Source of the DNA: a virus
DNA length: 21,379 nt
Virus record (IMG/VR): IMGVR_UViG_3300040944_000061
Coordinates: 1 to 21,379 of that record
Direction: 5' to 3' (one strand)
The translations under genes and the position numbers were made by a program. This document shows positions 11,973 to 20,865 of the stretch, piece by piece. The notes below the pieces were generated by a model. It worked only from the letters and a program-made list of their open reading frames with translations, had not been told where the DNA came from and ran no database searches. How positions within the stretch are numbered: position 1 is the first letter of the stretch; the number at the start of each line of letters is the position of its first letter.

Positions 11973-12273
11973 GGTGTGGCTATTCGACCTCGGGATGGCG
12001 GCCAAGACCCGTCCCGTCCTGGTTGTGAGTGTCGCTTATGGCGATGCCGATCGCGCCATCGTTACCGTCGTCCCTCACACGACTCAGCTTCGCGGCTCTC
12101 CCTTTGAAATCTCCGTGCGTGCCCCCTTCCTTCAACAGGGCGCCTTCCTGGTTCAAGGCATATCGACACACCCGAAAGCCTGGGCGATCCGCAAGATCGG
12201 CGCACTCACGCGAGACCAAATGGCAGCGGTTATGGCGGGCGTGCGGGATTGGTTGGGTCTCACGCAGGATTGA
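11953..12273 (+). CDS. MazF/PemK-like endoribonuclease toxin
   Basis: A 106-residue protein starting MQPARGEVWLFDLG, the usual N-terminus of the MazF/PemK family, followed by KTRPVLVVS (Arg20-Pro21), IVTVVPHTT (Thr43-Thr44) and the C-terminal RKIGALTRDQM. Members fold as an SH3-like barrel and cut mRNA at short sequence motifs; the conserved Arg and Thr belong to the active site. Length matches the family (about 105-120). The ATG at 11953 has AGGAAGAG just upstream and overlaps the end of the antitoxin gene. The 3' end overlaps the convergent zinc-ribbon gene by 14 bases. No disrupting mutation is visible, so it is probably active. Its cleavage sequence cannot be read from here. Confidence 0.9.
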   Translation: MQPARGEVWLFDLGMAAKTRPVLVVSVAYGDADRAIVTVVPHTTQLRGSPFEISVRAPFLQQGAFLVQGISTHPKAWAIRKIGALTRDQMAAVMAGVRDWLGLTQD

Positions 12274-12685
12274 CGGCTGAATTACTTCTGACTGATACCG
12301 CTTGCCTCGGCCCCGGCGCGGTCTCTCCGCTTCTGTTCTGCTCCTGGCGCTCAACCTCGATCAGTTCCAGCACCCGGAACTCCTCTTCCGTGATATCCGC
12401 CAGCGTGATCGTGAGCCCGATGTTTTTCGCAGTCAGAATGCGGAAGCACCGTCGAACGAGAGCGCCATTCGGTGTATCCATCGCTTCTTCGAGCAGATGT
12501 TTAGGACAGCCGGGCCCGTGGCTGACGTCGATGGCTTTCCAGTCTGCACCGCACGCGAGGCAGCCATCCAACTCCGTCGGCGCAGAGTAGCCGCACCGCC
12601 GGCAACGGAAGACGCGGTCGGGACACTCTTCGTCAGGCCCGCACAGCCCGCCCTGGTGCAGCACCGACCGGATCAGGAATCGCAC
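12260..12685 (-). CDS. Zinc-ribbon protein in the gpT (tail chaperone partner) position
   Basis: A 141-residue protein starting at GTG 12685, with a strong GGAGGAG site at 12692-12698, six bases upstream. Cys28, Cys31, Cys42 and Cys45 form CRRC-x10-CLAC, a zinc ribbon; Cys15, Cys21 and Cys60 are extra. Residues 75-115 (ALVRRCFRILTAKNIGLTI, then TEEEFRVLELIEVER) look like a compact second domain. The last 25 residues are low-complexity and overlap the toxin gene. It lies 32 bases after the gpG-like gene, where lambda-like phages encode the frameshifted T domain of the tail assembly chaperone. The minus-one frame of gpG is open into this gene, but no slippery heptamer is seen. I do not recognise a family. 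Role in tail assembly is inferred from place. Confidence 0.75.
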   Translation of the reverse strand: MRFLIRSVLHQGGLCGPDEECPDRVFRCRRCGYSAPTELDGCLACGADWKAIDVSHGPGCPKHLLEEAMDTPNGALVRRCFRILTAKNIGLTITLADITEEEFRVLELIEVERQEQNRSGETAPGPRQAVSVRSNSAVNPA

Positions 12686-16231: not shown

Positions 16232-17245
16232 CTACACCGCCGAGATCACGTTGTTGAAGAAGAAGCCGAGATCCGCAGAGACCAGGCGCATATCGAACGC
16301 CGAGTCGATCTCCACGCGATCCGAAGCCAGGTGCTCCATGCGGAACGTCTTGATACGGACACCGGCGCCGCCAGTGGTCCCGATCAGGCCAGTCCAGTTG
16401 AACACGTAACCAGCGCTGGGAGTCATCAGGCCGGCGTTTTTCGGGCGGTAAAACAGCGCGGCGCTCATGCCGCCGATGAACGCGTTGGACTCGGTCGCGC
16501 CTTCCGCCGCCTGGTTGTACACGGCGTCGATGACCAGAACATCTTCCAGTTCCAGAATCTCGGCCATGATCTGCCGGGTGGCCACCGCCGGGTTGGGTGC
16601 GGTCTGGCCGTACTTGGTGCGGTCGATGAAATCCGGGTGGTCGATGAGCTTGTCGAATACCGGGCGGCTGACCACGAAGATATTGGGCGCGAAGCCGCCG
16701 CTCGACAGCCGCATCTGGGTCTTCGCGTGGCGAATGTCAGTGATGGGGTTGCCATTGGGGTAGTTCGCGGAGTCCCAATAGACGACGTGGGTAGAATCCG
16801 CCGTTGCCTGGCCACTGGCCTGGTTGGTCCAGATCCCGGTGCCGAAGAACTTCGAGACCCACTGGTTCTCTCGCCGGATCAGCGCCTTCTGGGTCAGGAA
16901 GATCGTGGCGTCGCGGTCGGGGGCAAGCGGCGAGTCGCTGTTGGAGCGGATCTGGTCGTCCACGTCCTTGTGCAGCGACCAGACGTCGCAGTTGTAGGTG
17001 CCGGTGGAATTCAGATTGTAGCCGGTGCCGGCAGATTCAGTGGCGAGCGCGCGCTTCTGCATCTCGTCGCGGTTGAAGTCGGCCCGCGCGTAGGTGTAGT
17101 AGAGATCGCTTTTGTTTTCGACCGGGACCGCCGGAAAGGCTTTGTCCGCGACGAATTCGACTCCGGCGGCCTCCTGAAGGTAAGCCACGGAAATGTTCGT
17201 CAGCGGTCGGTTGACGTGAACGTCCTGCAATGTCGGTTGAGGCAT
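16232..17245 (-). CDS. Major capsid protein
   Basis: A 337-residue protein, close to lambda gpE in size (341). It starts MPQPTLQDVHVNRPLTNISV with AAAGGAGA well placed upstream. The N-terminal arm is followed by AYLQEAAGVEFVADKAFPAV, a segment FLTQKALIRRENQWVSKFFG, an A-domain-like part NIFVVSRPVFDKLIDHPDF and VATRQIMAEILELEDVLV, and a strand-rich C-terminus that ends RLVSADLGFFFNNVISAV. This layout and the place after the decoration protein fit an HK97-fold capsid subunit. It assembles the prohead shell on the scaffold encoded upstream. No cleavable N-terminal delta domain is apparent; the scaffold is a separate gene product. Confidence 0.88.
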   Translation of the reverse strand: MPQPTLQDVHVNRPLTNISVAYLQEAAGVEFVADKAFPAVPVENKSDLYYTYARADFNRDEMQKRALATESAGTGYNLNSTGTYNCDVWSLHKDVDDQIRSNSDSPLAPDRDATIFLTQKALIRRENQWVSKFFGTGIWTNQASGQATADSTHVVYWDSANYPNGNPITDIRHAKTQMRLSSGGFAPNIFVVSRPVFDKLIDHPDFIDRTKYGQTAPNPAVATRQIMAEILELEDVLVIDAVYNQAAEGATESNAFIGGMSAALFYRPKNAGLMTPSAGYVFNWTGLIGTTGGAGVRIKTFRMEHLASDRVEIDSAFDMRLVSADLGFFFNNVISAV

Positions 17246-17284: not shown

Positions 17285-17668
17285 CTACATCTTGTACGGG
17301 CCGAGAAGCAGGGCGGGGATGATCACGCCAGCTCCCGCCGAGGAAGCCAGCGCGCGCGCCCGCACGAAATTGCCGGCGGTCGCGGTGATGGCCTGGCCGC
17401 TGGCGTTGGCCATCAGGGGGTCGCCGGCAGTAACGGCAGCGCCGGTCACCAGCTTCGTGATGCCGAGGATGGCGACCTCGCCCTCGACTCCCTGTGCGTT
17501 GGGCTTGTCCTGGACTACGCCATCGGCAACGGCGCCAGCGCCCGTGAAGTTGATCTGTCCGGACGCGTTGGTGGTCACGAAGTAGAACTGCGGATTCACA
17601 GTTCCACCGCTCGTGAGGTCCGCAGCCGCCGGAAGCCCTACTGTGCGTAATGTCTGTTCGAATGCCAT
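17285..17668 (-). CDS. Capsid decoration protein (DUF2190-like)
   Basis: A 127-residue protein starting MAFEQTLRTVGLPAAADL, with GVVQDKPNAQGVEGEVAILG, ITKLVTGAAVTAGDPLMANA, then VRARALASSAGAGVIIPALL. The VQDKPNA...G and G.T.V..GAAV.AGDPL motifs match the DUF2190 'capsid cement' family, small trimeric proteins that bind the outside of mature heads like lambda gpD. The gene order protease-scaffold, decoration, capsid is the same as lambda C-Nu3-D-E. AAAGGAG lies upstream of the ATG. Confidence 0.85.
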   Translation of the reverse strand: MAFEQTLRTVGLPAAADLTSGGTVNPQFYFVTTNASGQINFTGAGAVADGVVQDKPNAQGVEGEVAILGITKLVTGAAVTAGDPLMANASGQAITATAGNFVRARALASSAGAGVIIPALLLGPYKM

Positions 17669-17689: not shown

Positions 17690-18352
17690 CTACCGGGCGA
17701 GGCGAACGCCGGCCCGCTCGAGCGTGGCGATCAGGCCCTTCGCGTTGTGCTGCGCCACGAACGCTCCGTAAACCTCGGGATGCTCTTCGAGCATCTGGGC
17801 GTAGGCGCGCTCCTTGGTCAGCTTGGTGGTACCGCTTTCGGCGTAAAGATTGGAAGTCTCTTTGCCGCGATTCTGCCGGGCGTAGGTGGTGGCCTGCGCT
17901 TCAATTTCCTGAAGCGAGCCAACCGCGCCCTGGTTCGGGTTGACGTGGGACGTAATCATGCTCCTCTCGCTCTCGATCACGCGGGCGGCGGTCAGTTCCT
18001 CGCTGATTTCCGCCACGCTGAAGTACTGGCCGGTGGACTTCTTCTTGGTGAGGAGTTCCGCGGCCTTGTCGGGACATCCGGCCATCTTGCACAGTGCGCC
18101 GATGGCTTCGATGTCACCTTCGGGGCGCATCTTCAACGCTTCGCCAGCTACGGCAGCCAGGCCGCTGAGCGGGGCCATGCCTTCCGGTTTCTTGGCGTCG
18201 CCCTTTACGTTCTCGCCGCAGGCATGGCAGAATGTCGCGTCCGCGTGAAGCTTGGTTCCGCACGCGTGGCAGTACTTCGGCTCGTTGTTGGTCTTCTCGT
18301 CGCCGTCGCTGGGCTTCTTACCCTCGGTGGCGATCGTCGTTTCATCGGGCAT
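17690..18352 (-). CDS. Nested Nu3-like scaffold from an internal start
   Basis: In frame with the protease, ATG 18352 (Met305, MPDETTIATEG) is preceded by AAGGAGGTAA at 18361-18370, a near-perfect Shine-Dalgarno. Translation from here gives a 220-residue protein without the peptidase domain: an acidic, Lys-rich start, the zinc ribbon at its residues 28-45, and helical segments. This is the same arrangement as lambda Nu3 within C, where the nested product is the main scaffold guiding capsid assembly. The C-terminal part would bind capsid protein. Production of the nested form is inferred from the site; it could be tested on virion or prohead protein. Confidence 0.7.
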   Translation of the reverse strand: MPDETTIATEGKKPSDGDEKTNNEPKYCHACGTKLHADATFCHACGENVKGDAKKPEGMAPLSGLAAVAGEALKMRPEGDIEAIGALCKMAGCPDKAAELLTKKKSTGQYFSVAEISEELTAARVIESERSMITSHVNPNQGAVGSLQEIEAQATTYARQNRGKETSNLYAESGTTKLTKERAYAQMLEEHPEVYGAFVAQHNAKGLIATLERAGVRLAR

Positions 18353-19264
18353 ACTTGCTGTTACCTCCTTGGTTGTGGATACTGCGGCAATCGCCGCCGT
18401 TGATTTCTGGACCGGCTCGCCCAGCAGTTGACGAAGAGCGTTCATGGCATCGCCAAGTGTTCCGACCGCGTCTGCCAGAAGCGGAACGGCATTCTCCGCC
18501 CAGCACACGCCGGCCTGCGTCGCGATGATCTTTTCCGCGCTGGCCTTCCGGTTCCGCGCGACCGTCGCTACGAACTGGTCGTACTGCCGGTCAATCTCGG
18601 ACTGGATGTCCTTTTCGGCCCGCTCCGATAGCGGTTCATGCGGATTCCCGTCGACCTTCCTGTCGCCTTTGAAGATGTAGGTGTACTTGAACCCCTGCTC
18701 GCCGTTGAACTTCGAATCTTCCGCGTGAAGCACGACGACGCCAACGGACCCGACCGCGCCCATGCGCGTGACGAAGATCCTGTCGGCCGCGCTGGTCAGC
18801 GCGTAGGCCGCCGAGAATGCGAAATCGTCGGCGACCGCAAAGATGGGCTTCAAGCCGCGAAGGGAGTAGATGTAATCGGACAGTTCCAGGCATCCCGTGG
18901 TCTCGCCACCCGGCGAATCCACCTGCAGGAGGATCGCCCGCACTCCGGCGTCGTTGACCGCGTCCTGAAGGTAGCCTCCAATCTGCGCATAGGAACTGCA
19001 ACCACTCAGCGCCGAAACCCAGGATTCCGCTTTCGTTAGCACGCCCTGGATCGGAATGATCGCGATGCCGTCGATCACCTGGTAGCCGCTGTCATCCGCC
19101 TGCTCCATGTACGCGGCCGCGAATGGCTCGGCTCCCACGCCGACGCTGACGGGGATGATCCCCAGCCGCGGGCCCAGCGCCTGCACCATGACGTCCAGCT
19201 TGGGGGGATGAATCATGAGTGGCGTGTTCACAAACCGCGATGCCACGCGAGTCAGATTCCTCAT
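17690..19264 (-). CDS. Head maturation protease (S49 family) fused to scaffold with zinc ribbon
   Basis: A 524-residue protein. Residues 60-275 form an S49 (SppA/lambda gpC-type) peptidase: IIPIQGVL at 69-76, LQVDSPGGE at 113-121, Ser151 in DDFAFSAAYALTSAAD as likely nucleophile, and Lys203 in GDRKVDGNPHEPLSE as general base. Residues 280-330 are a linker. Cys332, Cys335, Cys346 and Cys349 (YCHACG ... FCHACG) form a zinc ribbon. The rest is a helical scaffold-like region ending ERAGVRLAR. The enzyme is expected to sit in the prohead, cut the scaffold and portal, and then be lost. The ATG overlaps the portal stop (ATGA), with GAGGTGGA upstream. An internal start yields a separate scaffold. A zinc ribbon is not a usual part of gpC/Nu3 proteins. 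Confidence 0.9.
   Translation of the reverse strand: MRNLTRVASRFVNTPLMIHPPKLDVMVQALGPRLGIIPVSVGVGAEPFAAAYMEQADDSGYQVIDGIAIIPIQGVLTKAESWVSALSGCSSYAQIGGYLQDAVNDAGVRAILLQVDSPGGETTGCLELSDYIYSLRGLKPIFAVADDFAFSAAYALTSAADRIFVTRMGAVGSVGVVVLHAEDSKFNGEQGFKYTYIFKGDRKVDGNPHEPLSERAEKDIQSEIDRQYDQFVATVARNRKASAEKIIATQAGVCWAENAVPLLADAVGTLGDAMNALRQLLGEPVQKSTAAIAAVSTTKEVTASMPDETTIATEGKKPSDGDEKTNNEPKYCHACGTKLHADATFCHACGENVKGDAKKPEGMAPLSGLAAVAGEALKMRPEGDIEAIGALCKMAGCPDKAAELLTKKKSTGQYFSVAEISEELTAARVIESERSMITSHVNPNQGAVGSLQEIEAQATTYARQNRGKETSNLYAESGTTKLTKERAYAQMLEEHPEVYGAFVAQHNAKGLIATLERAGVRLAR
18361..18370 (-). promoter_or_regulatory. Internal Shine-Dalgarno for the nested scaffold
   Basis: AAGGAGGTAA inside the protease-scaffold gene, with its core 11 bases before an in-frame ATG (18352). 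It is the strongest ribosome binding site visible in the window, stronger than the site of the full-length gene, which fits a scaffold needed in many copies. Confidence 0.75.
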
Positions 19265-20865
19265 GGCTTCACGTCCACCTCGCCCTTGCTGGCATCCTGC
19301 TGGATCTCGGCTTCCGTCAATCCGGCATTGCGCCCGGTCAGGACCTTCCGGCCATCGCTGTCGTAAGAGAGCCCAAGCTTGTCGGCCCGCTCGTTGTCTG
19401 CAGTCTGTTCCGCGTCCACTGCACCGGCGTCGCGCCCTTGCGCCGCCACCTCGGCAGAGCGCGTGGACAAGCCGCTGCGGATGGCGTCGTTAGAAGCCTT
19501 GATGTCCTTTTCGGGATCGACCCACGGCCAGCCGGGCGTTACCCACTGCACTTCCTCGAATGGCTCGGGATCTTTGCTGTACGCGTTCAGCATGTCAATG
19601 CCGAACACCAGCGCCAGCATCGCCTCGCGCAGCCAGCGCTTATAAACCGGGTGGCAGACCTGGAAGATGAAAACCGAATGCTGATACTGCTCGCACTTGC
19701 GGCGGAACTCCAGCAGGCCGGCGCGGATTGACGAGTAGTTGATCCCCGACAGGTCGCCACTGATCTGATACTCGGCAAGCCCGGCGCCGCTCGAAAACGC
19801 TTGCAGGCACGTCCGGATGAACGATTTGAAATCGCCGCTGTCCTTGGCCTCGGCGAACGACACCTCTTCGCCGAAGTTCAGCACCTGGAACGTGCCGGGT
19901 TCGAGCTTGCTGATCTGTGTCCCCGGCTCCGTCTGGCCCGGTCCGTTCTGATATTGGTCCGGGGGGATGATCGGATTATCCGGGCTGGCCTGCGTGATGA
20001 ACCCGGTGATCATCGCCGCAAGTTTCTTGCGGACGATCTCCGCGTCCGTGTACTGCTCCAGTTCGTAGAGCTTCGCAATCACCGACGTAAGCCACGGCTG
20101 TCCCCGGAACTGGCCCGCTCGAATCGGCTTGTAGACGTGCAGCACCTCGGTGGCGGGCACCCGCTCTACCGACAGCGCCTCCATCGGGAAGAACATCGTT
20201 TCGCCGGGATGCGCTTTCCAGAAGTGGTACGCCGCACGCCGTCCGTCGGCCTGAAACTCGATGCCGCACCGGACGGAATTCTTCGGCGGCATCTGCTCGA
20301 TGGCCGTGCGCCACAGCGGCAGTTGCTCGGCTTCGATGAGTTGCAGTTGCAGCGGAACCGTGAGGCCTTCCTTCGGCGAGCGCGGCCGGAACCGGACGAA
20401 GCATTCGCCGGCCTCCATGACCTCGCGGGCAATCACCATCTGCTGGCCGTAGAAGTCCGTCTGGCCCGACGCGGGATTCCGCGGGTCGTACTCGACGTCG
20501 CATTCGCGAGTCCACCGATTCCACTTCCTGGTGATCAGGTCGCGGATCTTATCGTCTGGGTGGTGAGGCACCAGGCGAATCCCACGCCCGATTGCATTCG
20601 CCACATACGAATCCACCGCCGCAGCCGCCCACGCGCTGTTGCGAACGGCGTCCCGGTTCCGCGCCTGCAACTCCAGGCCATGCGAAAACAGGAGCGTGTT
20701 GAGGCCGAGGGACGGCGGATTCCATCCGATGCCGCGACGTCCGCGTCCGGCGGCGTCGAACGGGAACGTCCCCATCGCGCGGGTGCGCGGCACGCGCTGG
20801 ACTGGGATCGGCATCGGCTCGTGCCCGGCCTGGCGCGCGAGCGTCATCAACGTTTCAATTGGCAC
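19261..20865 (-). CDS. Portal protein, lambda gpB family
   Basis: A 534-residue protein. Residues 60-95 carry the helix RDAVRNSAWAAAAVDSYVAN. Residues 145-160 read AREVMEAGECFVRF, 239-259 include LHVYKPIRAGQFRGQPWL, and 368-390 read ISGDLSGINYSSIRAGLLEF. These are the hallmarks of the lambda-type portal, whose ring of 12 subunits at one capsid vertex passes DNA in and out. The length matches lambda gpB (533). The start is GTG 20865, six bases after the previous stop, without a strong Shine-Dalgarno; ATG 20847 is an alternative. The C-terminal 50 residues are charged and Ala/Asp-rich. The stop overlaps the protease start. Confidence 0.93.
   Translation of the reverse strand: MPIETLMTLARQAGHEPMPIPVQRVPRTRAMGTFPFDAAGRGRRGIGWNPPSLGLNTLLFSHGLELQARNRDAVRNSAWAAAAVDSYVANAIGRGIRLVPHHPDDKIRDLITRKWNRWTRECDVEYDPRNPASGQTDFYGQQMVIAREVMEAGECFVRFRPRSPKEGLTVPLQLQLIEAEQLPLWRTAIEQMPPKNSVRCGIEFQADGRRAAYHFWKAHPGETMFFPMEALSVERVPATEVLHVYKPIRAGQFRGQPWLTSVIAKLYELEQYTDAEIVRKKLAAMITGFITQASPDNPIIPPDQYQNGPGQTEPGTQISKLEPGTFQVLNFGEEVSFAEAKDSGDFKSFIRTCLQAFSSGAGLAEYQISGDLSGINYSSIRAGLLEFRRKCEQYQHSVFIFQVCHPVYKRWLREAMLALVFGIDMLNAYSKDPEPFEEVQWVTPGWPWVDPEKDIKASNDAIRSGLSTRSAEVAAQGRDAGAVDAEQTADNERADKLGLSYDSDGRKVLTGRNAGLTEAEIQQDASKGEVDVKP

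Follow-up and report, generated by a model that had tools for sequence, protein, structure and literature searches.

A predicted zinc ribbon in the hinge of a lambda-type phage protease-scaffold protein, inherited with the protease domain

Introduction

What might a zinc ribbon do inside a phage capsid scaffold? The usual picture of a phage scaffold is that of a helical protein free of metal, and in the open-access literature that we searched we found no description of a zinc ribbon in any phage scaffold. The question is raised by a 21.4-kb IMG/VR fragment (IMGVR_UViG_3300040944_000061; hereafter the window, meaning the whole stretch of 21,379 nucleotides that was analysed). An initial annotation had located a CxxC-x10-CxxC motif (Cys332, 335, 346 and 349) between an S49 protease and a scaffold, positions that proved exact, and had suggested that it might hold scaffold subunits together, bind the portal or DNA, or act as a zinc-dependent switch. 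We propose that the motif is a structural, accessory zinc ribbon with a docking or spacer role connected with the protease, a statement to which, taken as a whole, we assign a probability of about 0.5.

Results

Head module and host

A Pfam search identified a lambda-type head module on the minus strand of the window:
19261–20865, minus strand: portal protein, lambda family (PF05136, E = 9e-99)
17690–19264, minus strand: full-length S49 head protease-scaffold protein, 524 aa, lambda gpC-like (Peptidase_S49, PF01343, E = 3.4e-22)
17285–17668, minus strand: cement/decoration protein (PF09956, E = 2e-5)
16232–17245, minus strand: major capsid protein, E family (PF03864, E = 9e-6)

This order, portal, protease/scaffold, cement and capsid, is that of lambda B-C/Nu3-D-E, and the protease-scaffold gene lies between the portal and the decoration and capsid genes, as expected for a lambda-type C/Nu3; its product also matched PHROG 53 head maturation protease (E = 8e-93). 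Because the nearest genome matches to the window were metagenome-assembled genomes (MAGs) of Bryobacterales and Solibacteraceae, the host is probably an acidobacterium, presumably of soil. The tail region of the window encodes a second small Cys-rich protein (12260–12685, minus strand; FRCRRCGYSAPTELDGCLACGADWK), which is 91% identical in a Bryobacterales contig (L082) and gave a weak rubredoxin-type match and nothing else against Pfam. Elsewhere, an 85.6-kb contig (IMGVR_UViG_3300048503_000180; L037 and L038) carries the head module twice, ~60 kb apart.

Parts of the protease-scaffold protein

The protein was divided into the following parts, listed in the order of translation:
18425–18850, minus strand: S49 protease domain, residues 139–280 (Pfam), with Ser151 and Lys203
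18278–18409, minus strand: N-side linker, residues 286–329, mostly disordered (predicted), relaxed
18363–18370, minus strand: perfect Shine-Dalgarno sequence of the nested scaffold gene, AAGGAGGT, preceding the ATG at 18352
17690–18352, minus strand: nested scaffold form, Nu3-like, 220 aa, from Met305 (in-frame ATG with Shine-Dalgarno)
18209–18277, minus strand: predicted zinc ribbon, residues 330–352 (Pfam, selection analysis, AlphaFold)
18260–18271, minus strand: first knuckle CHAC (Cys332, Cys335), both Cys kept in 21/21 single-ribbon relatives
18218–18229, minus strand: second knuckle CHAC (Cys346, Cys349), both Cys likewise kept in 21/21
18128–18208, minus strand: C-side linker, residues 353–379, mostly disordered (predicted)
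17693–18127, minus strand: helical scaffold core, residues 380–524, swapped independently of the ribbon

Ser151 and Lys203, which we take to be the catalytic pair by analogy to SppA, were invariant in 37 sequences. The predicted full-length model matched known structures through its protease part, and the best Foldseek matches of this domain were SppA structures (4kwb and 3rst). The C-terminal part is a putative scaffold that would be removed by the protease, an assignment based here on its predicted helices. This core has a cysteine of its own, Cys392 (codon 18089–18091), in a C-x-[LMIV]-[AS]-G motif that is far commoner than the ribbon: LC-x-[LMIV]-[AS]-G occurs in 73/74 family members and C-x-[LMIV]-[AS]-G in 78/87 more distant phage proteins.

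Each of the 74 full-length proteins checked had, at the corresponding position, an ATG preceded by a Shine-Dalgarno match of at least four bases, so translation of the nested scaffold form is well supported at the sequence level. The motif begins 27 residues past this in-frame start; long and short forms would therefore both carry it, as the initial annotation had proposed. In one case (L412, on a contig shared with L162 and L423) the reading frame changes ahead of the nested start and splits the gene, so that the scaffold lies in a separate frame with its own ATG; the split could be real or a sequencing error.

Evidence for a zinc ribbon

The window motif (YCHACGTKLHADATFCHACGE) reads CHACG-x8-FCHACG with the spacing C-x2-C-x10-C-x2-C, its Cys codons lying at 18269–18271 (332), 18260–18262 (335), 18227–18229 (346) and 18218–18220 (349), and both CxxC knuckles agree with the consensus of PF13240 (Zn_Ribbon_1) and PF12773 (DZR). 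The nested form matched DZR with E = 4.8e-5 and Zn_Ribbon_1 with E = 2e-4, each under the curated Pfam cut-off (21.5 of 25 bits for PF13240 and 23.9 of 27.3 bits for PF12773). The gathering score is a scoring convention, and we base zinc-ribbon membership on homologues of the same protein: a single-ribbon homologue with the same module (L061) scored 34.9 bits (cut-off 25), a tandem-ribbon homologue (L013) scored 39.6 bits for Zn_Ribbon_1 and 39.1 bits for DZR (cut-off 27.3), and a second tandem-ribbon protein (L065) was likewise above the zinc-ribbon cut-offs. A PDB sequence search with the ribbon returned weak matches only.

Codon comparison among 21 single-ribbon relatives indicates that the ribbon is under purifying selection: dN/dS was 0.11 for the protease, 0.17 for the scaffold core and 0.19 for the ribbon, and ~0.40 for both flanking linkers. 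The four Cys codons had accumulated silent changes (dS ~1.2 per site) and no amino-acid change (dN = 0). Conservation of the cysteines, one of the checks put forward with the initial annotation, is thus complete wherever the ribbon exists; the whole ribbon is missing from a sister clade described below.

Knuckles also come in pairs. Among 89 distinct linkers, 26 had no CxxC knuckle, 26 had two and 37 had four, with none having one or three, and single and double ribbons have interconverted repeatedly on the tree (at least 2–3 changes are forced by well-supported branches). Since a metal site requires pairs, this pattern favours one; knuckle 2 is identical to knuckle 4 at the DNA level, however, which offers an in-frame route for recombination, and the missing odd counts may come partly from deletion or recombination guided by this identity, so we treat the even counts as supporting evidence and not as proof. 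Chance cysteines as the source of the motif were ruled out by these paired knuckles, by codon conservation, by the homologues that pass Pfam and by shuffling of the window protein, which produced CxxC-x8-16-CxxC in 35 of 200,000 tries. Judged on its sequence, the motif is a genuine zinc ribbon, as the initial annotation had supposed, and its four cysteines would hold one Zn2+ structurally.

AlphaFold, run on the protein with 37 sequences, placed short strands at the ribbon (pLDDT ~65–71) between linkers below 50, and disorder was predicted on both sides of it. The nested form modelled alone gave the same strands and linkers (ribbon pLDDT ~60–71 over the two models), with the first helical part of its core predicted fairly confidently; the models were weak overall (pTM 0.44 and 0.28) and built without metal. 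The nested model had no significant Foldseek match among viral structures. These predictions depict the ribbon as a small folded bead strung on a hinge, otherwise disordered, that joins the S49 protease to the scaffold domain.

Ribbon-less relatives and chimeras

The sister clade without a ribbon comes from Acidobacteriota and includes a Solibacteraceae MAG (L083) as well as L072, L080, L107–L121, L125 and L127. Its members have the same protein, nested start, Shine-Dalgarno sequence and a similar linker length (mostly 68–82 aa, versus 75), but a charged linker rich in Lys, Glu and Asp replaces the ribbon. A motif with a single Cys, ECDxK, recurs in many of the ribbon-less linkers (L107, L110, L112, L119, L121 and L159).

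Protease type and core type occurred in all four possible pairings: ribbon protease with core a (the window) or core b (L061), and ribbon-less protease with core a (L072) or core b (L080). Two contigs from different metagenomes, L072 and L127, are chimeras with respect to the window, their portals being 91%, their scaffold cores 94–95% and their proteases 62% identical to those of the window, with the ribbon absent; we assume that these metagenome contigs represent functional phages. The decoration protein of L127 also matches that of the window (94% over 81 residues). DNA identity of both contigs to the window drops near 19,500 and returns near 18,170–18,060, which points to a single exchanged segment that reaches from the portal tail as far as the linker end; the end of the C-side linker approximates the downstream breakpoint in both. 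The two chimeras look as if they stem from one event.

Mapped onto the protease-domain tree, presence of the ribbon required one change within the family, or two when the tree was rooted with outgroups, versus four changes on the scaffold-core tree, seven on the portal-body tree and four on the portal-tail tree. Capsid type is not linked to the ribbon, since a ribbon-less relative (L080) had a capsid match of 86% and a ribbon-bearing one (L029) of 82%. Tree counts and chimeras together rule out a tie between the ribbon and the portal, portal tail, scaffold core or capsid type. Co-travel of the portal C-tail with the protease, seen in L072 and L127, was considered separately and rejected, as the tail does not follow the ribbon across the family. 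By these sequence comparisons, the ribbon is inherited with the protease domain rather than with the scaffold core, the portal, or the decoration and capsid proteins.

This co-inheritance may reflect nothing more than the sites open to recombination. Conservation of the N-side linker is low, which shifts crossovers to the next block that is conserved; physical linkage, together with an absence of conserved crossover sites on the ribbon's protease side, could explain the pattern. Two deep-branching protease-scaffolds from viral contigs (L123 and L124), 52–53% identical to that of the window, have a ribbon in the matching position past the nested start but with a different sequence; one gain followed by loss in the sister clade and two separate gains fit these data equally well.

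Wider searches

A search for ribbons in S49-type phage proteases, also put forward with the initial annotation, succeeded within the family of the window and failed beyond it: among 87 full-length, more distant phage S49 protease-scaffolds, none had a paired-CxxC ribbon of the window type in its tail. An Acidobacteriota genome (L169) and L146 encode S49 phage-type proteins with unrelated Cys clusters past the protease (CTCPCEPCQSNDDCDDCDHVNCNCEGC; CPDCPNPDECAEMGAC). When viral contigs were scanned with a generic ribbon pattern, the only S49 proteins with a ribbon among the matches listed belonged to the protease-scaffold family of the window. The scan also brought up a ~280-aa viral protein that recurs in many contigs (L206, L212, L222, L248, L267 and others), with a C-terminal zinc ribbon of roughly the form VxxPVTVKxKLxCxxCGxxSxSxxKFCxNCGTFLE. 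No phage record in INPHARED showed a recognisable relative of the whole nested scaffold.

Discussion

The ribbon is very probably a structural, accessory module. Because close relatives manage without it, it looks like a selected yet dispensable, swappable add-on rather than a core head-building part. We suggest that the zinc-stabilised ribbon would dock proteins or form a protease-resistant spacer in the hinge, helping the protease to engage scaffold chains, or to stay away from them, during co-assembly and scaffold removal; it would tune head assembly and be unneeded for recognition of the portal, the coat or other scaffold chains. A docking or spacing role with the protease is favoured because the ribbon is selected, predicted to be folded, present in both forms and follows the protease; on its own this role is a tentative proposal, reached by exclusion. 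The hinge is a plausible control point given that in lambda the portal protein (B), C and Nu3 come together in an initiator complex and that C may degrade Nu3 (PMC3224144).

The ribbon might instead join scaffold subunits, for example by ribbon-ribbon packing that adds to the self-association of the helical core. Lambda Nu3 does self-associate (PMC3224144), the ribbon is present in the abundant short form, and a copy number of one or two is what tunable avidity would predict. Against this, L072 and L127 have cores that are nearly those of the window and lack the ribbon altogether, and the presence of a ribbon does not track the tree of the core; holding subunits together, as first suggested, finds no support as a necessary function, and we consider an oligomerising role unlikely.

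Generic zinc ribbons are common protein-binding modules, and this one might bind a host protein, such as a chaperone, or the portal, thereby localising assembly. In lambda, B, C and Nu3 meet in the initiator complex (PMC3224144). Yet portals 91% identical to that of the window occur without a ribbon, and the portal-body and portal-tail trees demand seven and four changes. Because near-identical portals and cores occur with and without it, the ribbon is probably not required as a binding site for portal or scaffold, contrary to the initial suggestion of portal binding, and we regard docking to a host factor or the portal as quite improbable.

A zinc or redox switch, in which metal loss or oxidation alters the state of the scaffold or protease and so times maturation, would be in keeping with four conserved cysteines in a hinge adjoining the point at which protease and scaffold would be separated. 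Occupancy of the hinge by metal might then time protease release from, or attack on, the scaffold, with single and double ribbons tuning the threshold between related phages. There is no evidence for regulation, however, and the sister phages, lacking the ribbon, must mature without such a switch; both the switch and this timing scheme seem to us very improbable. Many zinc ribbons bind nucleic acid, but a scaffold whose ribbon clears nucleic acid (DNA or RNA) from the procapsid, or recruits it there, is hardly credible here, as the DNA binding first suggested found no positive evidence, the ribbon has a net charge of 0 in the window and most relatives, the linker is net negative, and the linker that replaces it in the sister clade is acidic too.

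The family itself amounts to a natural experiment, in which portals and cores that are nearly the same occur with no ribbon or one, and near-identical proteins occur with one or two. These natural variants make the role of the hinge in lambda-type head assembly, which is poorly understood, directly testable.

Compared with known zinc ribbons, the window motif shares with PF13240 and PF12773 the pattern CxxCG-x8-[FY]CxxCG and conserved Gly, Leu and Ala, and differs in lying inside the hinge of a phage protease-scaffold. Compared with known head proteins, the window protein has a scaffold core with no recognisable likeness to that of lambda by tblastn. Its layout, an S49 protease and then a scaffold translated from an in-frame start within the gene, is that of lambda gpC/Nu3, and gpC is 33% identical over residues 1–326. 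As the initial annotation had stated, lambda has no such module, gpC containing no CxxC and no ribbon. The window protein is thus best filed with the lambda-type C/Nu3 protease-scaffolds, from which its ribbon sets it apart.
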